Part shown: piece after piece, positions 31,176-43,142 of the stretch
How the letters are laid out: every line of letters starts with the position of its first letter
How positions within the stretch are numbered: position 1 is the stretch's first letter
Assembly: GCF_003674065.1 (NCBI RefSeq)
Contig: NZ_RDBE01000006.1
Coordinates: 310,001 to 374,000 of the forward strand
Length of the DNA: 64,000 nt
Reading direction: 5' to 3'
Origin: Nocardioides mangrovicus
Lineage (GTDB): Bacteria; Actinomycetota; Actinomycetes; Propionibacteriales; Nocardioidaceae
Made by a program: the position numbers and the translations under genes
Notes under the pieces: model-generated
Seen by the model: the letters and a program-made list of their open reading frames with translations, nothing else
Databases searched by the model: none
What the model was told of the DNA's origin: nothing

Positions 31176-32612
31176 ATGGCAGCGGGTGAGCAGGACGCGC
31201 AGGCACCGGGCGAGCTCGAGCAGGAGCACACCGAGACCCACGACCTCCAGGTGCCACAGGCCTGGGCCGAGTTCATGCGGAAGGGCTGGGGCGAGCGGGA
31301 GCTCGACCTGCCCGCCCACCCGGTCACGCCGTGGGCGGCCCGCCGTCGGGAGCGACTGGCCGGTCAGTTCCCCGGCGAGCGGCTGGTGGTGCCCGCCGGC
31401 GGCTTCAAGGTGCGCTCGAACGACACCGACTACCGGTTCCGGCCCGACACCGCCCACACCTGGCTCAGCGGCAACCAGACCTCCGACGCCGTGCTCGTGG
31501 TCGAGGACGGCGAGGCCACCCTGTTCGCGCGCCCGCGCAGCTCGCGCGAGAGCGACGAGTTCTTCCGCGACCGCCAGTACGGCGAGCTATGGGCGGGGCG
31601 GCGACCCTCGCTGCGCGAGATCTCCGACTCCCTCGGCGTGACCACCCGTCACCTCGACGACCTCGACGACGTGCTGGCCCGGCCGGGGAAGACCCGGGTG
31701 CTGCGCGGCGTCGACGCGCGGGTGGACGCGGCGGTCGCCGGCGACGAGGACAGCGACATCGAGCTGGCCAAGGTGCTCTCGGAGCTGCGGCTGGTCAAGG
31801 ACGAGTGGGAGGTCGGCGAGCTGCGGACCGCCTGCGACACCACCACGCTGGGCTTCGAGGACTGCGCGCGCGAATGGGGCGACGTGCTGCGCTACGGCGA
31901 GCGCTGGGTCGAGGGCACGTTCTTCCGACGGGCCCGCGCCATGGGCAACGACATCGGCTACGACTCGATCGTCGGCGGCGGGCGCCACGCCACGACGCTG
32001 CACTGGATCGACAACACCGGTCCGATGACGCCCGGCGAGCTGGTGCTGCTGGACATGGGTGCCGAGGCGACCTCGCTCTACACCGCCGACGTCACCCGCA
32101 CGCTGCCGATCTCCGGCACCTGGACGCCGCTGCAGCGTGACCTGTACTCGCTCGTGCTCGAGGCCCAGACGCAGGGCATCGCCGCGGTGCAGGTCGGGGC
32201 GACGTTCCGCGGCGCCCACCACGCGGCGATGGACGTGCTCGCCCACGGTCTCGACGACCTCGGGCTGCTGCCGGTCTCGGTCGACGAGGCGCTGGCCGAG
32301 GACAGCAAGGTCTACTCGCGCTGGACGCTGCACGGGGTGAGCCACATGCTCGGCATGGACGTGCACGACTGCGCGCAGGCCGACCCCGACATCTACCCCC
32401 AGGGCGACCTGGAAGCGGGCATGGTGCTCACCGTCGAGCCGGGCCTGTACTTCCAGGAGGACGACCTGCTGGTGCCCGAGGAGCTGCGCGGGATCGGGAT
32501 CCGCATCGAGGACGACATCCTGGTCACCGCCGACGGCCCCGTGAACCTGTCCGAGGCCCTCCCCCGCGAGCCCGACGCCATCGAGGAGTGGATGGGCTCA
32601 CTGCGCCGGTGA
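31176..32612 (+). CDS. Xaa-Pro aminopeptidase (M24B metallopeptidase)
   Basis: The 478-residue protein has an N-terminal creatinase-like domain (~40-190) and a pita-bread M24 domain. The metal ligands are visible in order: Asp in LLDMGAE and YTADVTRTLP, His in HGVSHMLGMDVHD, Glu in VEPGLYF and Glu in GIRIEDDIL. It removes the N-terminal residue before proline. An acidic extension of ~25 residues precedes the family core. Its last 15 bases overlap the 3' end of the convergent ECF S-component gene. Confidence 0.94.
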   Translation: MAAGEQDAQAPGELEQEHTETHDLQVPQAWAEFMRKGWGERELDLPAHPVTPWAARRRERLAGQFPGERLVVPAGGFKVRSNDTDYRFRPDTAHTWLSGNQTSDAVLVVEDGEATLFARPRSSRESDEFFRDRQYGELWAGRRPSLREISDSLGVTTRHLDDLDDVLARPGKTRVLRGVDARVDAAVAGDEDSDIELAKVLSELRLVKDEWEVGELRTACDTTTLGFEDCAREWGDVLRYGERWVEGTFFRRARAMGNDIGYDSIVGGGRHATTLHWIDNTGPMTPGELVLLDMGAEATSLYTADVTRTLPISGTWTPLQRDLYSLVLEAQTQGIAAVQVGATFRGAHHAAMDVLAHGLDDLGLLPVSVDEALAEDSKVYSRWTLHGVSHMLGMDVHDCAQADPDIYPQGDLEAGMVLTVEPGLYFQEDDLLVPEELRGIGIRIEDDILVTADGPVNLSEALPREPDAIEEWMGSLRR

Positions 32613-33428
32613 GTCCAACCGGGCCCGCCGGGCGGCGCGTCGCAGCGTGGTGAGGATGGCGGGTCCGAGCACCACGATGGCCAGCGCGTTGGTGATGGCC
32701 CGGCCGGTGTCGAAGCTGCCGGTGGAGGTCAGCAGCGTGTAGACGCCGAACCGGTGCAGGTTGTCGACCAGCGGGTCGCCGGGGACGAACGACAGACCGC
32801 CGTCGTGACCGGGGACGGCGACGCCGAGCAGGAACGGCCAGCTCGACAGGTTCATCAGCAGCCCGAAGACGTAGGCCGCGACGACGCCGTAGGCCACGAG
32901 CATCGCGATCTCGGCTCGGCCGGTGACCCGGCGCGGTAGCAGTCCGGCACCCAGACCGATCCAGGCCGAGGCCAGCATCTGGTAGGGCAGCCAGGGGCCG
33001 ACGCCGGCGGTGAGCAGCGCGGAGGCGAACAACGAGGTGCAGCCGAGCACGAACCCGAAGCCGGCGCCGTAGACCCGGCCGGCCAGCACCAGTAGGAAGA
33101 AGACGAACTCGATCCCGGCCAGACCGGCGTCGAGGCCGCGCAGCACCGCGTTGCAGGCGGTCAGCACGCCGAGCACGGCCAGCACCTTGGCGTCGATGCC
33201 GCCCTCGCTGAGCTCGGCGAGGACCACCAGCACGACGACCGGCAGCAGCACGAGGAAGAAGAACGGCGGCGAGACGGTGTCGCCGTGCACGCGCACGTGC
33301 ACCAGCAGCGGCCAGCAGAACATCAGCAGCCCGGCCACGCTGGCCAGCCCAAGCACGGCGGCCGAGCGCGGCCGCAACGCCAGCGCCGGACGAGTCACTG
33401 CACGACCGGTCAGGTCGAGCGCGCTCAT
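32598..33428 (-). CDS. ECF transporter S component, predicted cobalamin-specific
   Basis: The 276-residue membrane protein has about seven hydrophobic segments, including LLMFCWPLLVHV, FFFLVLLPVVVLVVLAEL, VLAVLGVLTACNAVLRGLD and GLGAGLLPRRVTGRAEI. The NAVLRGLDAG..EFVFFLLVLAGRVYGAGFGFV stretch resembles S components that bind a vitamin and dock on EcfT. It starts at ATG 33428, overlapping the ATPase stop (ATGA), and is last in the cobalamin-riboswitch operon. Specificity for B12 is inferred from the riboswitch and the B12-binder-like genes upstream, not from binding residues. Confidence 0.85.
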   Translation of the reverse strand: MSALDLTGRAVTRPALALRPRSAAVLGLASVAGLLMFCWPLLVHVRVHGDTVSPPFFFLVLLPVVVLVVLAELSEGGIDAKVLAVLGVLTACNAVLRGLDAGLAGIEFVFFLLVLAGRVYGAGFGFVLGCTSLFASALLTAGVGPWLPYQMLASAWIGLGAGLLPRRVTGRAEIAMLVAYGVVAAYVFGLLMNLSSWPFLLGVAVPGHDGGLSFVPGDPLVDNLHRFGVYTLLTSTGSFDTGRAITNALAIVVLGPAILTTLRRAARRARLDSPAQ

Positions 33429-35014
33429 CGCTGCTCCCGGGCCGCGACGACCTGCTCGACGGTGAGCCAGGGCGGCCCGAGGATCTTGGCGACCTGCGGC
33501 GCGAAGGCCGGCGACTGAGCCAGCACCTCGCCGGTGGGGCCGGACGAGACGACCTCGCCGTCGGACAGCACGATGACGCGGTCGGCCACCTCGGCGACGA
33601 ACTCGACGTCGTGGCTGGCGACGACCACGGCCCGGCCCTCGGCCGCCATCGCGAGCAGCACCTCGGTCAGCGCCCGCTTGGCCGGGTAGTCCAGGCCGCG
33701 GGTCGGCTCGTCGAGCGCCACCACCGCGGGCGCGGCAGCCAGCACGACGGCGAGCACCAGCGCGAGCCGCTGGCCCTCGGACAGGTCGCGCGGGTGGACG
33801 CGGTCGTCGACGCCCGGCACCAGCCGGTCGAGCAGTGCCCGTGTGGTGCCCGCCGCCGCGGCGGCGTCGCGGTCGGCGGCCGTGCACTCCTCACCCACGG
33901 TCTCGAGGTAGAGCAGATCGGCCGCGGTCTGCGGCACGAGGCCGACGCCGACGCTCCCCGACACGGAGCCGGCCGCGCGGCGCGCGGGCTCGCGCAGCGC
34001 CCACAGCAGCGAGGACTTCCCCGACCCGTTGCGGCCCATCACCGCGGTCACGGCCCCGGCCGGCAGGTCGACGTCGACGTCGCGCAGCGCAACCGTCTGC
34101 CGGCCGGCGGAGCCATACGTGACCCGCAGACCGCGAGCGGCAAGGCCCTCGCCGGCGGCGGGGGTGTTGCCGGGCGCCCGGCAAAACTCTTGGTCTTGTG
34201 AGGTTGGTGGGACTGGTGGGATCGGTGAGGCATGGCGAGCGGCCCGGCGGGCGTCGCGCACCGAGAGCGGCAGCGGCGACCACCCGGCCACCCGGCCCAG
34301 CTCGACGATGGGCGGGACCACCGGTGAGGCGGCCAGCACCTCGGCGGGCGGGCCCACCACGACGGTGCCGTCGCCGGGGAGCAGGCACACCCGGTCGGCG
34401 AAGGGCACCACCCGCTCCAGCCGGTGCTCGGCGACCACGACGGCCAGGCCGACGTCGTGCACCAGGCGGGCCAGGGTGGCCAGCACGTCCTCGGCCGCGG
34501 TCGGGTCGAGCGCCGAGGTGGGCTCGTCGAGCACCAGGAGCCGCGGGTGCATGGTGAGCACCGAGCCGATCGCCACGCGCTGCTGCTGACCGCCCGAGAG
34601 GGTCCGCAGGTCGCGGCCGCGCAGGTCGGCCACCCCGAGCAGGTCGAGGGTTTCCTCCACGCGGCGGCGCATCGTCGGCGGGTCGAGGCCGAGCTGCTCC
34701 ATGCCGTAGGCGAGCTCCTCCTCCACCGTGTCGGTGACGAAGCCGGCGCTCGGGTCCTGGCCCACGTAGCCGACGTCGGCGGCCCGCTCCCGCGGCGGCC
34801 GGGCGGTGATGTCGACGTCGCCGAGCCACACTCCCCCGCTCATGGTGCCGCCGGTGAACCACGGCACCAGGCCGTTGAAGGTGCCCAGCAGCGTCGACTT
34901 GCCCACGCCGGTGCGCCCGGCCACCAGCAGCAGCTCGCCCTCCTCGACGGCGAGGTCGACGTCGCGCAGTACCCGGTTGCCGGCCAGCTCCACGCCGACC
35001 GCGCGCAGCTGCAT
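33425..35014 (-). CDS. ECF transporter fused ATPase (two ABC domains, EcfA1-EcfA2 type)
   Basis: The 529-residue protein holds two ABC ATPases in one chain. Domain 1 has Walker A AGRTGVGKST (~33), signature LSGGQQQRVAI (~140) and Walker B LLVLDEPTSALDP. Domain 2 has MGRNGSGKSS (~325), a degenerate signature LSEGQRLALVL and VVALDEPTRGLD. A linker with PIPPVPPTSQ joins them. It energises the ECF transporter together with EcfT. The start ATG 35014 overlaps the EcfT stop; GTG 35017 is also possible. The upstream open frame to 36043 is shadow. Confidence 0.92.
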   Translation of the reverse strand: MQLRAVGVELAGNRVLRDVDLAVEEGELLLVAGRTGVGKSTLLGTFNGLVPWFTGGTMSGGVWLGDVDITARPPRERAADVGYVGQDPSAGFVTDTVEEELAYGMEQLGLDPPTMRRRVEETLDLLGVADLRGRDLRTLSGGQQQRVAIGSVLTMHPRLLVLDEPTSALDPTAAEDVLATLARLVHDVGLAVVVAEHRLERVVPFADRVCLLPGDGTVVVGPPAEVLAASPVVPPIVELGRVAGWSPLPLSVRDARRAARHASPIPPVPPTSQDQEFCRAPGNTPAAGEGLAARGLRVTYGSAGRQTVALRDVDVDLPAGAVTAVMGRNGSGKSSLLWALREPARRAAGSVSGSVGVGLVPQTAADLLYLETVGEECTAADRDAAAAAGTTRALLDRLVPGVDDRVHPRDLSEGQRLALVLAVVLAAAPAVVALDEPTRGLDYPAKRALTEVLLAMAAEGRAVVVASHDVEFVAEVADRVIVLSDGEVVSSGPTGEVLAQSPAFAPQVAKILGPPWLTVEQVVAAREQR

Positions 35015-36114
35015 CACGAGGACGTCCTCGGCGCCACCAACGCGGGCACCAGCCCGAGCAGCACCAGCAGCAGCGCGGCCAGCGTGAGCGTCGGCGCCGC
35101 GGTGAGGGCGGGGTCCTGCACCGCCGGCTGGTGCGGCAGCAGCACGAACGCCGCCGCCGCCACCAGCACCCCGCTGCCGGCGACCAGCAGCTCCGGTACC
35201 CGCCACGGGTCGGGCCGGTAGCGCGTGCGCTGCACCCGCCGGCCGGCGGAGACGAAACCGGCCGCCGCCGCCAGCGCCCCCAGGACGAGCATCGGCACCG
35301 CCAGCACCCGCGGGGCGCTCTGGTCGAGCACCGCGTACACCCCGACGCTGATGCCCACCAGCCCGGCGATGAGCAGCGTGCCGGTCACCCGGCGCTGGCG
35401 CGGCGTCAGGTCGCCGGCCCGGCCGTAGCCGCGGGCGTCCATGCCGGCAGCCAGCGCCAACGACCGCTCGAGCGCGTCCTCGAGCACGGGAACCAGCAGC
35501 CGACGCAGGCTGCGGCGACCGTGTCCGGAGCCGCGCAGGCGCTGCGCCTGGCGGACCCGCCGCACGCTGTCGGCCAGCTGCGGCAGGATCGCCACCGCCA
35601 CCACCACCGTCGTCCCGACCTCGTACAACGCGGGCGGCAGCGACTTGAGCAGCCGCTTGGGGTTGGCCAGCGCGTTCGCCGCGCCGACGCAGATGAGGAT
35701 GGCGGCCAGTCGCATGCCGTCGTAGAGCCCGGCCAGCACGGTGTCGGCCGTGACCGGCCCGAGCAGCCGGATGCCCAGCACCCAGTGCGGCAGCGGGATC
35801 TCGGGCAGGTCGAGGAGCACGGTGCCGGTGCCGGTGGCGCCGCCGAGCACCACCCGGAACAGCACCCGCAGCACCACCACGACCAGACCCAGCCAGAGGT
35901 AGAGCCGGAACGCCCGCGACCACGGGTGGTCGGAGCGTCGCAGCGCGACCACCACCCCGGCCTCGGCCACCACCAGCAGGAGCAGCAGCGGGTTGGTGGT
36001 GGCCGACGCCGCCGCGGCCAGGCCGAGCGCCCAGATCCACCACGCCCCGGGATGGAGCTCGCGCGGGAGCTGCCGCACGCGGACCCTCGCCCGGGGCAGC
36101 TCGGCCGTGGTCAC
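35014..36114 (-). CDS. ECF transporter transmembrane scaffold (EcfT/CbiQ family)
   Basis: The 366-residue protein starts at GTG 36114, overlapping the stop of the DUF4430-like gene. N-terminal helices begin with HPGAWWIWALGLAAAASATTNPLL; the two coupling motifs of EcfT are seen as MRLAAILI..(A)NPKRLLKSLP and the Ala-Arg-Gly type MDARGYGRAG (~235). A C-terminal group of four extra helices (~260-360) is longer than in minimal EcfT proteins. It couples the fused ATPase to the S component. Position within the B12-riboswitch operon points to cobalamin uptake. Confidence 0.9.
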   Translation of the reverse strand: MTTAELPRARVRVRQLPRELHPGAWWIWALGLAAAASATTNPLLLLLVVAEAGVVVALRRSDHPWSRAFRLYLWLGLVVVVLRVLFRVVLGGATGTGTVLLDLPEIPLPHWVLGIRLLGPVTADTVLAGLYDGMRLAAILICVGAANALANPKRLLKSLPPALYEVGTTVVVAVAILPQLADSVRRVRQAQRLRGSGHGRRSLRRLLVPVLEDALERSLALAAGMDARGYGRAGDLTPRQRRVTGTLLIAGLVGISVGVYAVLDQSAPRVLAVPMLVLGALAAAAGFVSAGRRVQRTRYRPDPWRVPELLVAGSGVLVAAAAFVLLPHQPAVQDPALTAAPTLTLAALLLVLLGLVPALVAPRTSS

Positions 36115-36956
36115 ACGCCTCGACGCCGCCACACGACCGCGCCGAGGCCGCCCCCGGCCAGCAGCACGACCACGATCACCGGCAGCCACCACGGCAGCGT
36201 CCCACCACCGGTCTGCTGACTGTCATCGGTCGTGGCCGCCGCGGGTGAGAGCGCCTGGGCGCTCGACGTCGCGCTCGGGGTGGCCGTGGGCGACGGCGTG
36301 GCGGCCGCCGGTGTCGCCGCGGTGGGGGTCGGGGTGGGCGTTGGGGTCGGCGCGGAGGTGGTGGCGGTGCTCGCCGCCACCGTCGCGGTCGACGCCGCAC
36401 GCGGCGTCGCCGAGGCCGTGGTCTTGGTCTTGGGCTTGGACTTCGTCGTGGACTTGGACGTGGGCGCGCGGGTCGGCTTCGCGGCGGAGGTGGCCTTCAC
36501 CTGCGTCGGCGCGACCCCCGGCGGGTTGGCGTTGGTGCTCCCCTGCCAGGCGAACGCGACGCTGCCGCCGGCAGGGACCTGCAGGCCTCTGACGCCGCTG
36601 GTGGAGTAGGTCCACCCACCGCCCTGGCCGTCGTTCCAGAACAGTCCCCAGTAGGCGTCGGCCGGCGAGGTGGTGGTGCACGGGTCGCTCTGCGGGGCGT
36701 TCTCGACCCGGCACACGAACCCGGGCTGGCGCGAGGCGTAGCTCAAGCTCACGCCGACGTCGCGGAAGATGTCGTCGGCGTACCGGCCGCCGCCCGCGGT
36801 GTCGCAGGACTGCCGCACCCCGCCCCCGAGCTGGTGGAAGTCGACGACGACGGTGACGCCGCCCGCGGTGCAGGCACCCGCCGAGCTCGGCGCGGCGCCC
36901 GCGGGCGCCGCGCCGAGAACCAGGAGTGCTGCGATCGCGACCAGGAGTCGGGTCAC
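36111..36956 (-). CDS. Secreted, membrane-anchored DUF4430-like protein (possible transcobalamin beta-domain analogue)
   Basis: The 281-residue protein has a signal peptide (MTRLLVAIAALLVLGAAPAGA), a globular domain (~25-140), a Thr/Pro/Lys-rich linker (~145-245) and a C-terminal membrane anchor (LPWWLPVIVVVLLAGGGLG) with basic stop-transfer. The globular part begins with GVTVVVDF, continues through ADAYWGLFWNDGQGGGWTY and ends VPAGGSVAFAW; this order resembles DUF4430, the beta domain of animal transcobalamin and intrinsic factor. Four Cys could form two disulfides. Its start overlaps the stop of the prenyltransferase-repeat gene and it is under the cobalamin riboswitch. The DUF4430 assignment is by pattern only. 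Confidence 0.75.
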   Translation of the reverse strand: MTRLLVAIAALLVLGAAPAGAAPSSAGACTAGGVTVVVDFHQLGGGVRQSCDTAGGGRYADDIFRDVGVSLSYASRQPGFVCRVENAPQSDPCTTTSPADAYWGLFWNDGQGGGWTYSTSGVRGLQVPAGGSVAFAWQGSTNANPPGVAPTQVKATSAAKPTRAPTSKSTTKSKPKTKTTASATPRAASTATVAASTATTSAPTPTPTPTPTAATPAAATPSPTATPSATSSAQALSPAAATTDDSQQTGGGTLPWWLPVIVVVLLAGGGLGAVVWRRRGV

Positions 36957-38557
36957 CGCACCACCTTGAAGGTGATGGCCCCCTTGCGAACCCCGCCGAA
37001 GCGGCCGAACACCTTCACCGTGACCTTGCGCACCCGCTTGCCGGCCTTGAAGCTCAGCGAGACCTTGCCCTGAGCATTGGCGACGCGGTTGATGGTGGTG
37101 CCGTAGACCTTGATCCGCACCGGCTCACCGGTGGCGAAGCCCTTGACGGCCAGGTACTGCCGGGCGCCGCGCTTGATCCGCTTGTGCGAGACGTAGGTCT
37201 TGAACTTCGCGTTCTGGAGCACCTGCACCGACGCCGCGGCGCTGCGACCCTGCGAGTCCACGATGGTGTAGCTGGCCGTGCCCGACTTCGGCGCCGTGAC
37301 CGAGACGTCCGCCGTGCCGCTGGCACCAGCCGTGCCGAGCTTGGCGGTACCGGGACCGGTGACGCACACCGAGTCACCCGGGGCGACTCCACTGACGCTG
37401 ATCGTCGTGGCCGCCTTCGGCCGGGCGAAGCCGTCGGTGGTGGAGACGGGGCCGGTGCCGGTGGGCGCGTTCCCGAGCACGAGCATGCCCTGGGTCGTGG
37501 CGCGGCGGAACTTGTCGAGCACGGTGGCGTTGCCGAGACCGTTGTAGCGACCGGTGCTCAGCGTGGCGGCGTCGTAGCCGACGGTGCCCTGGGCGTTCGA
37601 CAGCGCGTCCGTGCACGCGGCCGGCTGGTGCACCTGCAACGAGCGCACGTAGACGGCCGCCTTCTGGGCGGCCGCGGTGTCGCCGAGCAGGCCGAGGGCG
37701 TACCCGGCGAGACCAGTGCTGTTGGCGTTGCTGGCCGCCGTGCTGGTGCCGCCCCCGAACGAGCCGTCGGATTTCTGCTGCGAGGCCAGCCAGGTCTTCG
37801 CCGTGTTGAGCTTGGCGGTGATCGCTGGGGTGGCGGCGAGCTGGCTGAGCTGGATGACCGCGATCGACGTGGCGTCGGTGTCGGCGGTCGAGGACGCCGT
37901 GCATCCCGCCGCCGACAAGCTGAGGCTGAAGTAGCCGGCGGTGCACTCCTGGTTGAGGAGCGCGTTGACGGCGGCCGACGCCTCGCTGGATCCGGCGTTC
38001 GTCAGGCCGCGCGCGGCGTAGGCCTGACCGATAGTGCTGGCGTAGTTGTCCCCCGAGCTGTCCGCTACCACACCGGTGGTGTTGTCGGTCAGGTCGTTCA
38101 TGCGGGTCAGGATGTTCTGCCCGCCGTAGGTGCCGTTGGTGTACCCGTTCGCCTGGGCGAACACGAGGAGCTTGGCCAGCGAGTTGGCGTAGTAGGTCGT
38201 CGTGTTCGTGGAGGAGTCGGTGTAGCTGTAGTAGTCGGTCGCGTTGGTGCCGGAGGCGACCGCGTTGGCGATGGCGGTCCGCTGCGGGGCGTGGCCGCCG
38301 GCGACACCCAAAGCGTCGAAGGCGTCGATCGACAGCCCGACGTCGTTGCCGTAGGGGCCCACCATGAGGCCGCCCGACGAGAGCTGCCCGGCCACCCAGT
38401 CGGCGGCACCGGCCAGCGGCTTCGGGTCGTTCGCGGCCTGCGCGGGCGCCCCGACGAGCGCGGTACCAGCCAGCGGCAGCACGAGTGCGGCGGCGGTGGC
38501 GACGCCACGCAACCGGCGCCTTCCCGGGGCTCCCGGAGCGGCAGAGAAGATGGTCAT
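36953..38557 (-). CDS. Secreted prenyltransferase-repeat protein (possible transcobalamin alpha-domain analogue)
   Basis: The 534-residue protein has a signal peptide (~residues 15-41, ending GAPAQA). An alpha/alpha-toroid of prenyltransferase/squalene-oxidase-like repeats (~45-330) follows, for example AADWVAGQLSSGGL, WLASQQKSDGSFGG and ANSTGLAGYALGLLG. The last ~190 residues are beta-rich, with an Ig-like segment (TISVSGVAPGDSVCVTGPG) and a basic C-terminal domain. The toroid is the fold of the alpha domain of intrinsic factor and transcobalamin. The gene is directly behind a cobalamin riboswitch and is first in an operon with an ECF transporter, so I propose a cell-surface B12-capturing protein. 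Confidence 0.82.
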   Translation of the reverse strand: MTIFSAAPGAPGRRRLRGVATAAALVLPLAGTALVGAPAQAANDPKPLAGAADWVAGQLSSGGLMVGPYGNDVGLSIDAFDALGVAGGHAPQRTAIANAVASGTNATDYYSYTDSSTNTTTYYANSLAKLLVFAQANGYTNGTYGGQNILTRMNDLTDNTTGVVADSSGDNYASTIGQAYAARGLTNAGSSEASAAVNALLNQECTAGYFSLSLSAAGCTASSTADTDATSIAVIQLSQLAATPAITAKLNTAKTWLASQQKSDGSFGGGTSTAASNANSTGLAGYALGLLGDTAAAQKAAVYVRSLQVHQPAACTDALSNAQGTVGYDAATLSTGRYNGLGNATVLDKFRRATTQGMLVLGNAPTGTGPVSTTDGFARPKAATTISVSGVAPGDSVCVTGPGTAKLGTAGASGTADVSVTAPKSGTASYTIVDSQGRSAAASVQVLQNAKFKTYVSHKRIKRGARQYLAVKGFATGEPVRIKVYGTTINRVANAQGKVSLSFKAGKRVRKVTVKVFGRFGGVRKGAITFKVVR

Positions 38558-38599
38558 GGGTGTCCTTCCCGCTGCTGGCGGAAGGGCGGCGCTCCCGAG

Positions 38600-38765
38600 T
38601 GCCGCTCATCCACCGTTGTCCTCGACAGCGTGTGATGAAGACGCCTCGCCCCAGGCGCTCCGGCTCGTCACGCCTGGCGACCAGGCGGGACACACGGTTG
38701 CGGGACAGCGCCGGAATCGGACCGGCTTCCCCTGTGGACGTGCGTATGCGGTTGTGTGAACGAAC
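38600..38765 (-). promoter_or_regulatory. Cobalamin riboswitch
   Basis: On the minus strand the conserved core reads GGGGAAGCCGGTCCGATTCC then GGCGCTGTCCCGCAACCGT. It is followed by GCCTGG.., a B12-box-like GACGAGCCGGAGCGCC and a closing GAGGACAACGG. These are the hallmarks of the adenosylcobalamin riboswitch family. It lies about 45-200 bases upstream of the secreted toroid gene (start 38557, ribosome site AAGGA). Cobalamin should therefore repress the whole ECF operon. The boundaries are approximate. Confidence 0.93.
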
Positions 38766-38804
38766 GGTAACCCATCTGTGAGCCACTACCCTGTGGCCGG
38801 TCGG

Positions 38805-38878
38805 GCCCCCGTAGCTCAGCTGGATAGAGCAAGAGCCTTCTAATCTCTAGGTCGCAGGTTCGAGTCCTGCCGGGGGCG
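38805..38878 (+). tRNA. tRNA-Arg (anticodon TCT)
   Basis: The acceptor arms GCCCCCG and CGGGGGC pair fully. The D arm is GCTC..GAGC, the anticodon loop CTTCTAA gives TCT at 34-36, and the T arm is GCAGG-TTCGAGT-CCTGC. One C-T mismatch occurs at the top of the anticodon stem (31-39). CCA is not encoded. It precedes the ABC exporter gene by 84 bp. Confidence 0.93.
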
Positions 38879-38961
38879 CTGGTCCTCGCCGCAGGCGGAA
38901 CCGGAGGGCTACGACCTAGGTCCCATGGCGGATACGACCAGGTCGAGGAGATCGTCGACTC

Positions 38962-40731
38962 GTGCCTCTCCCCCTCGCGCTGCGCGTCGTCGCTCCGGCC
39001 GCCCGGCCCCAGGCTGCGCGCCTGGGGTTGGCCGCCGGTTCGGTGCTGGTGCAGGTGGGCCTGGAGCTGCTGCGGCCCTGGCCGCTGGCCCTGGCGGTCG
39101 ACCATGCGCTCGCCGCGGGGGCACGCCCGCTGCGGCTGCCCGTGCTCGGCGAGCTGGGTGCGACGTCGGCGCTGGTGCTGGCGGCCCTGGCCACCGTGGT
39201 GCTGACCGTGGGCATCGGCGCGCTCGACCTCGTCCTGGAGCGTTCCGCCGAGGGCGCGGCCGAGCGGATCGGAGCCCGGGTGCGCTCGGACATGTTCACG
39301 CGGCTGCTCACCCGTTCGTTGCGCTGGCACGACCGGACGAGGGTCGGCGAGCTGCAGTCGCGGATGAGCACCGACGTCGGCCGGCTGCAGGACGCCGTGG
39401 TGGCCACGACCACCACGCTCGTCCCCGACGCCGTGATGGTGGCGGCCGTGGTCGTGCTGATGGCGCGACTCGACCCGATGCTGGCCGTCGTCGGCCTCAG
39501 CGTGGTGCCGGTGCTGGCGCTGCTGGTGGTGGTGCAGCGGCGGCAGGTCCGTGCCGCCCAGCTCGCGGCGCGCAGCACCTCGGGCCGGCTCGCGAGCACC
39601 ACCACCGACCTGCTGCGCAACATCCGGGCGGTGCAGGCCTTCGGTCGCCACGACCGCGCCGAGACCATCCACGGCGCCGACAACCACGCGGTGCTGCGGG
39701 CCGAGCTGCGAGCCGTCGACGTGACGGCGCGGTGGACGCCGGTGGGCGACGTCGTGCTGGCCCTCGGCACGGGTCTGGTGCTGGTGGTGGGTGGCACCCA
39801 CGTGCTGCGCGGCGGGCTGAGCGTCGGTGCGCTGCTGGTGGTGCTGGCCTACCTCTCGAGCCTCTACTCCCCGGTGAAGAACCTGGCCCGGCTCTCCACC
39901 GTGCTGGCCAAGGCCTCGGTCTCGGCGGGCCGCGTGCGGGAGGTGATGGTCTGCGAGGAGGCGATCCGCGAGCACCCGCTCGCCGTCCCCGCGCCCTCGC
40001 TGCGCCACGGCATCTGGTTCGAGGACGTCAGCTTCGGCTACGAGCCGGGCCGCCCCGTCATCAGCCACCTCACCCTCGCGGTACGCGCCGGTGAGACGGT
40101 GTGCCTGCTCGGCGCCAGCGGTGGCGGCAAGAGCACCCTGACCTACCTGCTGCTCCGGCTCTACGACGTCGACTCCGGTCGCGTCACCCTCGACGGCGTC
40201 GACGTCCGCGACTGCACGCTGGCCAGCCTGCGCTCCCGGTTCGCCTACCTGCCGCAGGACCCGTGGCTGCTGGACGCCACGCTCGCCGAGAACATCGCCT
40301 TCGGAACGCCCGACGCCGACCGCGAGCAGGTCCGCGAGGCCGCTCGCCTGGCGCGGGTGGAGGAGTTCGTGGCGCGGCTGCCGCTGGGTTACGACACCCC
40401 GCTGGGTGAGAACGGCGTCCGCCTCTCCGGCGGTCAACGACGCCGGGTGGCGCTGGCCCGAGCCGTGCTCGGCGACGCGCCGATGATGCTGCTCGACGAG
40501 CCGACCGCCTCGCTCGACCAGGCCTCGGCGGAGGCGGTGCTCGACGCCGTCGGCGCCACCGTCGGGGCCGGCGCCGGGACCGGCGCCGGCGTCGTCTCCG
40601 GGGCCCCCGGCCGCCGGACCACCCTCATCGTCACCCACGACCCGCGACTGGCCGTCATGGCCGACCGCGTCCTCGAGCTGCGTCCCGGCGATCCGACCGG
40701 GACGCCCGTCGTCACCGTGGAGAGGAGGTGA
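38962..40731 (+). CDS. ABC exporter, fused permease/ATPase half-transporter
   Basis: The 589-residue protein starts at GTG 38962. Six membrane helices occupy ~15-320, including VVLAYLSSLYSPVKNLARL in the last. The ATPase has Walker A LGASGGGKST (~390), Q-loop LPQDPWLLDATLAENI, signature LSGGQRRRVAL, Walker B MMLLDEPTASLDQ and the switch VTHDPR. It works as a homodimer and is probably an exporter. A Gly/Ala-rich insert (VGAGAGTGAGVVSG) breaks the D-loop to H-loop region. It ends five bases before a 25-codon peptide gene with its own strong ribosome site, suggesting that the peptide is cargo. Confidence 0.92.
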   Translation: MPLPLALRVVAPAARPQAARLGLAAGSVLVQVGLELLRPWPLALAVDHALAAGARPLRLPVLGELGATSALVLAALATVVLTVGIGALDLVLERSAEGAAERIGARVRSDMFTRLLTRSLRWHDRTRVGELQSRMSTDVGRLQDAVVATTTTLVPDAVMVAAVVVLMARLDPMLAVVGLSVVPVLALLVVVQRRQVRAAQLAARSTSGRLASTTTDLLRNIRAVQAFGRHDRAETIHGADNHAVLRAELRAVDVTARWTPVGDVVLALGTGLVLVVGGTHVLRGGLSVGALLVVLAYLSSLYSPVKNLARLSTVLAKASVSAGRVREVMVCEEAIREHPLAVPAPSLRHGIWFEDVSFGYEPGRPVISHLTLAVRAGETVCLLGASGGGKSTLTYLLLRLYDVDSGRVTLDGVDVRDCTLASLRSRFAYLPQDPWLLDATLAENIAFGTPDADREQVREAARLARVEEFVARLPLGYDTPLGENGVRLSGGQRRRVALARAVLGDAPMMLLDEPTASLDQASAEAVLDAVGATVGAGAGTGAGVVSGAPGRRTTLIVTHDPRLAVMADRVLELRPGDPTGTPVVTVERR

Positions 40732-40736
40732 GCCTC

Positions 40737-40814
40737 ATGGTGAAGAAGGCCATCCGCAAGCACCGCACGCGCACCCGCTCGCGCTCGCGCAGCCGCTCGC
40801 GCAGCCACGGCTGA
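40737..40814 (+). CDS. 25-residue Arg-Ser/Thr repeat peptide, candidate exporter cargo or RiPP-like precursor
   Basis: ATG 40737 follows GGAGAGGAGG with an 8-base gap, one of the best ribosome sites in this region, and lies five bases after the ABC exporter stop. The peptide begins MVKKAIRKH; residues 10-23 strictly alternate Arg with Thr or Ser (R-T-R-T-R-S and on), then it ends HG. The calculated charge is strongly positive (11 Lys/Arg). No Cys is present. Next come a Ser/Thr-kinase-like protein and an FAD/NAD(P)-binding protein, so the alternating Ser/Thr or Arg residues could be modified. No family is recognised. Confidence 0.6.
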   Translation: MVKKAIRKHRTRTRSRSRSRSRSHG

Positions 40815-40900
40815 CGCGCACCCGCTCGTCTCGTCGCTCCGGTCGTTCCCCTGGACCGGAGCGACGGGGCGGGCACCGCACTCCCGGACGAGGACCCCGC

Positions 40901-41740
40901 ATGACGCTGCTGATCGAACGAGCCGATGTCGACGACGTCGACGGCCTGCCCGTGTGGGGCTTCGAGGCGGGCGAGGAGCTCGTCCCCGGCGCTCGGGCCC
41001 TCGAGCGGCTCGGCGTCGGCCACCGGTGCGAGACCTGGCTGGCCTGGTGGGCCGCCGGCTGGCACCCCGTCGTGGTCAAGCTCGCCCGCCCGCACCAACG
41101 CGACCACCCGCGCGCCCGCGCAGCGCTGCGGCGCGAGGTCGACGCCGCACTCCCCCATCCCCATCTGGCCCGGCTGCTGGTCGACGGCAGCAACGCGCCG
41201 CTGCCGTTCGTGGTCACGGAGTACCTCGACGGGCCCACCGTCGCCGACGTCGTCGACGACCAGGGCGCGTTCACCTTTGAGGACGCCGCCACGCTCGGCA
41301 GCGCCGTGCTCAGTGCGCTGCGGGCCCTGCACCGCGCCGGGCTGGCCCACCTGGACGTCAAGGCCGAGAACGTCGTGCTGCGCGACGGCAGGCCCTACCT
41401 CATCGACGCCGGCTCCGCCCGGCCGCTGGGGCGCACCCAGCCACCCGGCCGGCCCGTCGGCACCCCGGGCTACACCGCGCCGGAGATGGAGGCCTGCTCG
41501 CCGGTCGCGGCGGCGATGGACCGCTTCGGGCTCGGCACGCTGCTGGCCGAGGCGCTCACCGGCACGCCCTTCCCCGAGGCCGGGCGGCTGCCCGACGTCG
41601 CGCTGGCCGCGGTCGTCCGTCGGTTGCTCGACGCCGACCCACTGGCGCGCGGCACCGACGAGTCGATCCTCGGTGAGCTCGCCGAGCTCACCGGCGAGGA
41701 CCGACCCTGGCCGACCTGGGCCGACGCCGACCTGGCCTGA
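40901..41740 (+). CDS. Ser/Thr protein kinase-like protein
   Basis: The 279-residue protein has a compact eukaryotic-like kinase domain. Visible elements are the VAIK-type lysine in HPVVVKLARP (Lys60), catalytic loop HLDVKAENVVL (150-160, with Asp152, Lys154 and Asn157), the DFG equivalent IDAGSA (Asp169) and GTPGYTAPEM (~188). The glycine-rich loop is poor, but all catalytic residues are there, so activity is plausible. There is no membrane segment or sensor domain. It starts at ATG 40901 after GAGGA, 86 bp behind the Arg-Ser peptide gene, whose Ser/Thr residues are obvious candidate targets. Confidence 0.85.
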   Translation: MTLLIERADVDDVDGLPVWGFEAGEELVPGARALERLGVGHRCETWLAWWAAGWHPVVVKLARPHQRDHPRARAALRREVDAALPHPHLARLLVDGSNAPLPFVVTEYLDGPTVADVVDDQGAFTFEDAATLGSAVLSALRALHRAGLAHLDVKAENVVLRDGRPYLIDAGSARPLGRTQPPGRPVGTPGYTAPEMEACSPVAAAMDRFGLGTLLAEALTGTPFPEAGRLPDVALAAVVRRLLDADPLARGTDESILGELAELTGEDRPWPTWADADLA

Positions 41741-41788
41741 TCCCCGGCGGGTCGACTCGCGGCGTCGGGCTCTCGTGCTCTAACATTA

Positions 41789-41814
41789 GTAACCCGATAG
41801 ACAAAAGGGGTTAC
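41789..41814 (+). promoter_or_regulatory. Inverted repeat covering the ribosome site of the FAD/NAD(P)-binding gene
   Basis: GTAACCC (41789-41795) and GGGTTAC (41808-41814) are perfect 7-bp arms. The right arm includes the AAAAGGGG ribosome site of ATG 41817, and TAACAT at 41781 could be a -10 element. It could be an operator or an RNA hairpin that hides the ribosome site. Confidence 0.4.
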
Positions 41815-41816
41815 GG

Positions 41817-43142
41817 ATGCGGGTCACACGGGTGGTGATCGTCGGCGGTGGCGCCGGCGGCGTGATCACGGCGGCCCAGCTGCTGCGGAGCGCGACCTCG
41901 CACGACCCGGTGCACGTGACCCTGGTCGAGCAGCGCCCACGCACCGGACCCGGGCTGGCCTACCGCACCCGGCACCGGCTGCACACGCTCAACAACTACG
42001 CCGGGCGGCTCAGCGCGTTCGCCGACCGTCCCGACGACCTCGTCGCCTGGTGCCGCGAGCGCCAGTACGCCGCCCACGAGCACTCCTTCCTCCCGCGCGG
42101 GCTCTACGGCGACTACCTGGCCGAGGTGCTCGACCGCGTCGACGTCCCCACGGGGAGCGCCGTGGAACAGGTCCGCGGCGAGGTGGTCGACCTGCTCCCG
42201 GGACGCCCGCACGCTGTGATCGTCCGGACCGCACCCAACGAGCCCGAGCAGCTGCTCCGCCTCGCCGCCGACAAGGTGGTGCTGGCCCTGGGCAACCCGC
42301 CGGTCGGCCGGCTGCGGCACCTGGAGTCGCTCGGCGCCCGCTATGTGGCCGACCCGTGGGCCGAGGACCTGGTCGAGCAGGTCGGCCCGGCCGACCACGT
42401 GCTGCTGGTCGGCACCGGACTGACCACCATCGACGTGGCCGCGCAGCTGCACGAGGCCGACCCGTCGGTGCGGCTGGTGGCGGTCTCCCGCCACGGACTG
42501 CTGCCGCGCACGCACCTGCCCTTCCCTGCCACCACCGGCGGCCCGTGGACCCCGCCGGGCGGCTCGCTGAGCGCGGTGCTCAGCGGCGCCCGCGCCGGCG
42601 TCGAGGAGCGCGAGGGCGAGTGGCGGCCCGTCGCCGACTCGCTGCGTGAGTACGTCAACGACCTCTGGCACGGGCTGCCGCCCGCCCACCGCGAACGCTT
42701 CGTGCGCCACGTCGCGCGCTGGTGGGAGGTCCACCGCCACCGCACCTCACCGGAGATGGGCGACCGCATCCGCGGCCTCGTCGACGCCGGCTCGCTGCGG
42801 GTCGCGCACCCCGACGATGTCGAGCCGGCCAGCTTCGACAAGGTCGTCAACTGCACCGGCCCCTCGCCGGTGTTCAGCTCCGGCTGGAACCCGCTGGTCG
42901 ACGCCCTCCTCGAGCGCGGCCTGATCAGGCCGCACCCGCTGGGGCGGGGCCTCGACCTCGACCCCGACGCCGGCCCCATCGGCGTCGACGGCGCGGTGCT
43001 ACCCGGCGTGCACGTCGTGGGCGCCGCGCGCCGGGGCCTGGAGTGGGAGGTCGCGGCCATCCCCGACCTGCGCGAACAGGCGTTCCGGCTGGCTCGGGCC
43101 TGGCAGCCCGTGCCGACGCCGACCACCGCGGTCCGGCCGTAG
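41817..43142 (+). CDS. FAD/NAD(P)-binding protein (NAD_binding_9-like flavoprotein)
   Basis: The 441-residue protein has an N-terminal dinucleotide fold VVIVGGGAGGVITAAQL (6-22) and the family segment LNNYAGRLSAFADRPDDLVAWCR (in two pieces around 58-82). A second Rossmann motif is HVLLVGTGLTTIDVAAQL (~197-214), and a C-terminal VNCTGPSP and HVVGAARRGLEWE region is typical of this flavoprotein class. It resembles single-component N-hydroxylating or other monooxygenases. It is last in the putative exporter/peptide/kinase cluster, with its own inverted-repeat leader. The substrate is unknown. Confidence 0.85.
   Translation: MRVTRVVIVGGGAGGVITAAQLLRSATSHDPVHVTLVEQRPRTGPGLAYRTRHRLHTLNNYAGRLSAFADRPDDLVAWCRERQYAAHEHSFLPRGLYGDYLAEVLDRVDVPTGSAVEQVRGEVVDLLPGRPHAVIVRTAPNEPEQLLRLAADKVVLALGNPPVGRLRHLESLGARYVADPWAEDLVEQVGPADHVLLVGTGLTTIDVAAQLHEADPSVRLVAVSRHGLLPRTHLPFPATTGGPWTPPGGSLSAVLSGARAGVEEREGEWRPVADSLREYVNDLWHGLPPAHRERFVRHVARWWEVHRHRTSPEMGDRIRGLVDAGSLRVAHPDDVEPASFDKVVNCTGPSPVFSSGWNPLVDALLERGLIRPHPLGRGLDLDPDAGPIGVDGAVLPGVHVVGAARRGLEWEVAAIPDLREQAFRLARAWQPVPTPTTAVRP

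Follow-up and report, generated by a model that had tools for sequence, protein, structure and literature searches.

An Arg/Ser-repeat micropeptide gene linked to ABC exporter and Ser/Thr kinase genes in Nocardioides mangrovicus and other actinobacteria: a putative kinase substrate and export cargo

In the DNA of Nocardioides mangrovicus analysed here (the window, a stretch of 64,000 nucleotides), an open reading frame of only 25 codons lies between the genes for an ABC exporter and a protein kinase. This raised the question of whether so small a reading frame codes for a genuine peptide and whether this peptide is modified by the kinase and transported by the exporter. The locus comprises the following features.

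38805-38879: tRNA-Arg(TCT), its 3' end 82 nt ahead of the exporter start
38962..40731, plus strand: ABC exporter half-transporter of 589 aa (Pfam PF00664 and PF00005), GTG start, TGA stop at 40729-40731
40720..40729, plus strand: Shine-Dalgarno sequence of the micropeptide, GAGAGGAGGT, overlapping the final codons and the stop of the exporter gene
40737..40814, plus strand: Arg/Ser-repeat micropeptide MVKKAIRKHRTRTRSRSRSRSRSHG, 25 codons, ATG at 40737, stop codon extending to 40814, kept in relatives
40832..40866, plus strand: perfect 13-bp hairpin (CGTCGCTCCGGTC, 9-nt loop) in the gap between peptide stop and kinase gene, without a T-run
40901..41740, plus strand: stand-alone PknB-like Ser/Thr protein kinase of 279 aa (Pfam PF00069) with catalytic residues
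41817-43142: FAD/NAD(P)-binding protein, following the kinase gene after a gap of 76 nt

An earlier note on this DNA had described a 25-codon ORF with a ribosome site five bases after the exporter gene, in which Arg alternates with Thr or Ser in residues 10-23, followed by genes for a protein kinase and an FAD/NAD(P)-binding protein, and this arrangement was confirmed in the sequence. The ribosome site is GAGAGGAGG at the end of the exporter gene, where the codons GAG AGG AGG TGA double as Shine-Dalgarno sequence; five bases separate the exporter stop from the peptide ATG, and the same overlapping layout is present in most relatives. A search of the locus for Sigma-70 promoters and T-run terminators identified neither. 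The flavoprotein, which had been regarded as part of the cluster, was rejected as a member of the cassette in view of the gap before its gene and the absence of homologues near any of the other loci, and is probably independent of it. Because it is missing from every other locus, the oxidation of Arg proposed at the same time is left without support. A genomic island behind the tRNA-Arg was also rejected, since the tRNA 3' end is repeated nowhere else in the window and the composition is ordinary. On the minus strand of the window, positions 32598-38784 contain genes for an ECF-type transporter, including a CbiQ-family T component (35014-36192), which adjoin two secreted-looking proteins without a Pfam match (36111-36956 and 36953-38557) and a cobalamin riboswitch near threshold (38633-38784; 27.1 bits against a gathering value of 31.5). 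This region is likely to serve B12 uptake, its binding proteins acting outside the cell.

The kinase contains the catalytic residues K60, E79, D152, K154, N157 and D169, with DAG in place of DFG, in agreement with the earlier description. By sequence, PknB is the nearest protein in the PDB, and neither a sensor domain nor a membrane domain was found in the window kinase. An AlphaFold model (pLDDT 80) aligned loosely to many kinases (rmsd 11-17 A, TM about 0.5), which supports a protein kinase fold and nothing more specific. The PADLOC matches of the kinase were generic, and PADLOC holds no model for the peptide. K60, E79, D152, N157 and D169 are conserved across all kinases compared. In five loci (L120, L121, L124, L207 and L179), Cys, Ser or Thr occupies the position of the catalytic-loop Lys (HxDxK) and the remaining catalytic residues are intact, so that kinase activity is uncertain there; L120, L121 and L179 nevertheless have peptides with Arg/Ser or Arg/Thr repeats, and loss of this Lys showed no relation to how much Ser the neighbouring peptide contains. 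The window exporter consists of a transmembrane domain (PF00664) and a nucleotide-binding domain (PF00005) without a C39 peptidase domain, and cleavage by the exporter is therefore not expected.

Relatives with the gene order exporter-peptide-kinase, designated type A, were identified in about 24 genomes, although some of these records probably represent one genome in two collections. They belong to Kribbella, relatives of Microlunatus, Blastococcus/Frankiales, relatives of Amycolatopsis and a congener. A genome scan with the exporter as query identified 14 loci at 53-62% identity, in Kribbella (7), Blastococcus (4), a Frankiales MAG, Amycolatopsis and Microlunatus. In 14 of 14, an ORF of 30-41 codons led by a Shine-Dalgarno sequence lies directly past the end of the exporter gene or overlaps it; the kinase gene comes next in 13, and in L122 the contig ends. 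In a search with a profile built from the kinases (A1), the member kinases were sharply separated (E <=1e-97) from the next kinases (1e-56). The earlier note had made its proposal depend on conservation of the small frame, and among readable type A loci the micropeptide is retained wherever exporter and kinase are; in G832 the peptide region is unreadable, the kinase gene being at the contig start. Every readable exporter-to-kinase gap contains a micropeptide of 25-46 residues led by a Shine-Dalgarno sequence, usually with Arg alternating with Ser or Thr (examples are MRIKPVMHHGRSRSRSRSRSRSRSRSRSRG, MIIIRIKGLVADRKHGRSRSRSRSRSYSRSRSRY, MLLIKGPMSYRKHGHKHGKHTGKTTRTTRTSRSRC and MANSSDWNNRNRNRTRSRTRTRSRSRDKNSR), and the congener G114, at only 40% identity, still has one (MSTTHSSLIRGLAEAYPAQTSQRRTRTRTRGRTRTGHRRGHGRGHR). 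The cassette is sparse, with 13 of 392 genomes in the order of the window, the window genome included, 6 of 115 in the Blastococcus family and 4 of 249 in the Amycolatopsis family. Its patchy occurrence within the genus points to horizontal gain or loss.

Peptides of the Blastococcus group have a constant front part (RVLGEVSAP and similar) and a core that varies, being an RS repeat in L121, Arg-Asp in L124 (...DDRHKDRDRDRRRSRDRHDRKW) and Ser/Glu in L207 (...NWSCSSSSSSEEKYDCGDEED). Judged from these sequences, this resembles the leader/core pattern of RiPP precursors. The replacement of Arg-Ser by Arg-Asp in L124 looks as if a fixed negative charge had taken the place of phosphoserine, and would fit an alternating charge pattern as the property that counts. 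Cys is present in a minority of the relatives and missing from the window peptide, and L179 contains the peptide gene in tandem copies.

A second clade of exporter-kinase pairs (type B; 33-38% identical) was identified in the family of the window itself. Here, the Arg/Ser micropeptide is encoded upstream of the exporter (MARSGILTALAPAVQARR...RRRRRRRRRNRSRSRSRSS), giving the order peptide-exporter-kinase, with MARSGILTALAPAVQARRGDSSSDDGRRRRRRRRRRNRSRSRSRSS and its relatives as peptides. The type B leader, MARS..L.PA (MARSGILTALxPA), is joined to cores of R8-12, RT or RS; the leader of the window peptide is very short. A type B peptide profile matched in 32 of 295 genomes of the family, and an exporter match accompanies the peptide in 28 of 30 fetched loci. 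Of the other two, one is truncated where its contig ends and the other contains the peptide gene twice in tandem; L241, of type B, has tandem copies of this gene. L092 and L088, which at first seemed to be without a peptide, have peptides with RT/RG repeats. Neighbouring genes vary between type B loci, and the cassette is the sole unit in common; a search for the peptide in plasmids found none. At L257 (G004:C14), the kinase gene lies beside the nucleotide-binding part of an exporter only and the peptide was not found, so that by its gene content this is a decaying exporter-kinase locus.

Each of exporter and kinase forms the same clades (exporter A 100/100 and B 100/100; kinase A 98), which indicates that both are inherited together; a sister grouping of the type A and type B exporters was not shown by the tree. 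The next-closest kinases (type C; L037-L042, L048-L054, L096-L098 and L258, in many genomes of the window's family) adjoin proteins of approximately 120-200 residues with poly-Asp or other acidic stretches and TRD, RSRD or NT repeats, for example MRKILPTTLLGVAGLTAFGLIGMSSPVVSA...TRDWTRDGGDKTRDKTANNTNDRSRNDTRG. By our own reading these proteins carry a putative Sec-type signal sequence, and no family was found for them in Pfam or NCBIfam. At one of these loci (L041), an OmpR-type two-component system is present. A quick tree placed 16 of 17 other actinobacterial kinases outside the group formed by types A, B and C (SH-aLRT 99, without bootstrap), and the exception, L105, is the degraded exporter-kinase pair of L257. 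The link of type C to types A and B is suggestive, since the tree has no bootstrap and the substrate relation is putative. The constant partner of this kinase group thus appears to be a Ser/Thr-rich repeat chain that is putatively exported.

Within the repeats, AGC/AGT and TCC/TCG codons for Ser stand side by side and Arg is encoded by CGC, CGG and CGT, which shows that it is the protein repeat, and not a repeat in the DNA, that is maintained. For close type B sequences pN was 0.064 versus a pS of 0.265, and for a Kribbella pair 0.073 versus 0.479. A hairpin follows the peptide stop, its stem being perfect over 8 bp or more in 42 of 51 loci (median z -3.5 over the 51), and a T-run is almost always missing. 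Chance statistics were drawn from the window and the fetched loci. A run of at least six R[ST] dipeptides occurs once in the 64-kb window and in none of its 60 dinucleotide shuffles; across the 1.48 Mb of loci that were fetched, such runs are confined to loci of this system, with one exception that is an out-of-frame reading of a PEPEPE-coding repeat. A composition rule (ATG ORF of 20-70 codons, Shine-Dalgarno sequence, second half at least 35% Arg/Lys and at least 20% Ser/Thr) matched in the window only the micropeptide ORF, and in approximately 0.72 Mb of control loci nothing except L198, which is itself a member locus. Three findings speak for a genuine peptide product, namely the hairpin, purifying selection at the codon level and the lack of such ORFs in control DNA. 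We have hardly any doubt that the gene is real and that its function is linked to the exporter and the kinase.

The most economical reading is that the peptide is the substrate of the kinase and the cargo of the exporter, and we consider it probable that it is a phosphopeptide analogous to the kinase-tailored RiPPs. The three genes would then form a dedicated cassette to make, modify and export a small Arg/Ser-repeat peptide. Once translated, the peptide would present its short N-terminal part as a recognition leader and the repeat as its business end; phosphorylation of the repeat Ser and Thr residues by the cytosolic kinase would convert a strongly basic chain into one of alternating positive and negative charge, which would no longer stick to nucleic acids and ribosomes in the cell, and the ABC exporter would move it out without C39-type cleavage. 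Outside, it may serve in envelope binding, competition or signalling. Hairpins occur after bacteriocin structural genes, and the hairpin here suggests, by analogy, that peptide output would be held above that of the downstream kinase gene. This reading is favoured by the presence of the peptide in every readable type A locus including the congener, by the same three genes in the independent type B clade, where the cassette is the only shared unit, by selection on the peptide at the protein level, by the co-inheritance of exporter and kinase, and by the grouping of the A, B and C kinases, type C being found beside putatively Sec-exported S/T/R/D-repeat proteins. A precedent is provided by lasso peptides, where a kinase of the cluster phosphorylates the precursor (PMC9266682). 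Against it stand the replaced catalytic-loop Lys in five kinases, the L126 peptide with just three Ser/Thr, the Ser/Glu/Asp core of L207, by which charge is not conserved throughout, and the type A and B exporters not shown as sister groups. The kinase could also phosphorylate the exporter instead of the peptide.

Alternatively, the peptide might be an antimicrobial or cell-penetrating cationic peptide that is exported in an unphosphorylated active form, with the kinase serving in immunity or self-protection rather than in maturation. The net charge of +9 to +14 in most members and the presence of an exporter would fit. In Kribbella, Blastococcus and the Frankiales MAG, a divergent histidine kinase gene adjoins the exporter gene, accompanied by a NarL-type regulator at those loci whose gene list includes one, and two-component systems are found at many peptide-antibiotic loci; such a system is absent beside the exporter in the window, Microlunatus, Amycolatopsis and G114. 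However, the Arg-Asp and Ser/Glu cores of L124 and L207 are not strongly cationic and a separate immunity gene is conserved at none of the loci, which makes this explanation unlikely.

The strong hairpin past the ORF in most loci keeps alive a further explanation, attenuation by a regulatory leader peptide. Here, Arg-tRNA supply or nascent-chain stalling while the Arg-rich ORF is translated would determine how much read-through past the hairpin reaches the kinase gene in type A or the exporter gene in type B, while the peptide itself would have no function. The runs of Arg codons and the tRNA-Arg directly upstream in the window are in line with this. Attenuation needs Arg codons only, whereas the segments RIKPxM, RVLGEVSAP and MARSGILTALxPA and the alternation with Ser/Thr are conserved; L207, with few Arg, keeps exporter and kinase, pN/pS is low, and L179 and L241 have complete tandem copies of the peptide gene. 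Regulation of this kind is therefore improbable.

It is highly improbable that the peptide is an intracellular nucleic-acid-binding micropeptide of the protamine or SR type, regulated by the kinase and only adjacent to an exporter with a different cargo: its RS repeats do resemble eukaryotic RS domains, but peptide and exporter have stayed linked across two distinct clades that differ in gene order. A chance ORF without function, for which low complexity and GC-rich DNA might speak, is refuted as far as sequence can do so by conservation, Shine-Dalgarno sequence, codon evidence and controls, and has practically no probability left.

The substrate-and-cargo reading shares its logic with the RiPPs, where a small gene-encoded precursor adjoins a predicted modifying enzyme and an exporter. 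In phosphorylated lasso peptides (paeninodin/PadeK, ThcoK, pseudomycoidin/PsmK), a cluster-encoded kinase phosphorylates a Ser of the precursor, and an ABC exporter is often present in lasso clusters (PMC9266682). The combination of kinase and ABC exporter with a precursor is the same here, where phosphorylation is inferred; in contrast, the B (protease) and C (cyclase) maturation proteins were not among the ORFs at the cassette and its relatives by inspection and clustering, and the putative substrate would offer many sites along a linear Arg/Ser repeat. Lasso kinases are HPr-kinase-like, whereas the cassette kinase belongs to Pfam Pkinase (PF00069) with PknB as its nearest relative. In class V lanthipeptides or lanthidins (cacaoidin, lexapeptide), genes for a kinase, a small peptide and an MdlB-type ABC exporter adjoin (cao9-caoA-cao11; PMC8068269). 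However, the HopA1-type partner (LxmY/Cao7), searched for with PF17914, is absent from the whole genome of the window, inspection of the neighbouring ORFs, by which the other defining enzymes were sought, revealed no lanthionine-forming partner beside the cassette, and Cys for lanthionine is missing in the window peptide and most relatives. The class III/IV lanthipeptide synthetases LanKC and LanL have a PknB-like kinase domain and are distant matches, whereas the cassette kinase is a lone domain of 279 aa in which no lyase or cyclase domain was found. From the double-glycine bacteriocins the system differs in its exporter lacking the C39 peptidase domain. Thus, no known class appears to fit, lasso and class V peptides sharing parts of the logic without their defining enzymes being found here.

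Neither Pfam nor NCBIfam holds a model for the peptides, and no description of them was found in an open-access literature library that is not complete; the claim of novelty rests on these absences. Peptide genes of this kind are too small and repetitive for standard annotation. If the reading is correct, bacteria use a dedicated kinase to phosphorylate exported Arg/Ser-repeat peptides at multiple residues, and no description of such a product type was found. One peptide, one kinase and one exporter would then provide a simple test bed for the chemistry of RS-repeat phosphorylation, a recognisable signature for genome mining and perhaps a role for a group of stand-alone actinobacterial Ser/Thr kinases. 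The cassette peptides share RS dipeptide repeats with the SR proteins of eukaryotes, which are phosphorylated by dedicated kinases, but they are free peptides of 25-46 residues with an exporter, and their kinase is nearest to PknB and not to SRPK. In bacteria, RS domains are rare and have been reported mainly with helicases (PMC9479744). There is an even chance, in our judgement, that the loci represent an undescribed class of exported repeat polypeptides, tailored by a kinase and widespread among actinobacteria, in which one kinase group is paired with low-complexity chains of the Arg/Ser type. With the same half-measure of confidence, export in this class would proceed by a dedicated ABC half-transporter, in two gene orders, or by Sec, making it an extracellular bacterial counterpart of the RS-repeat/SR-kinase pair.
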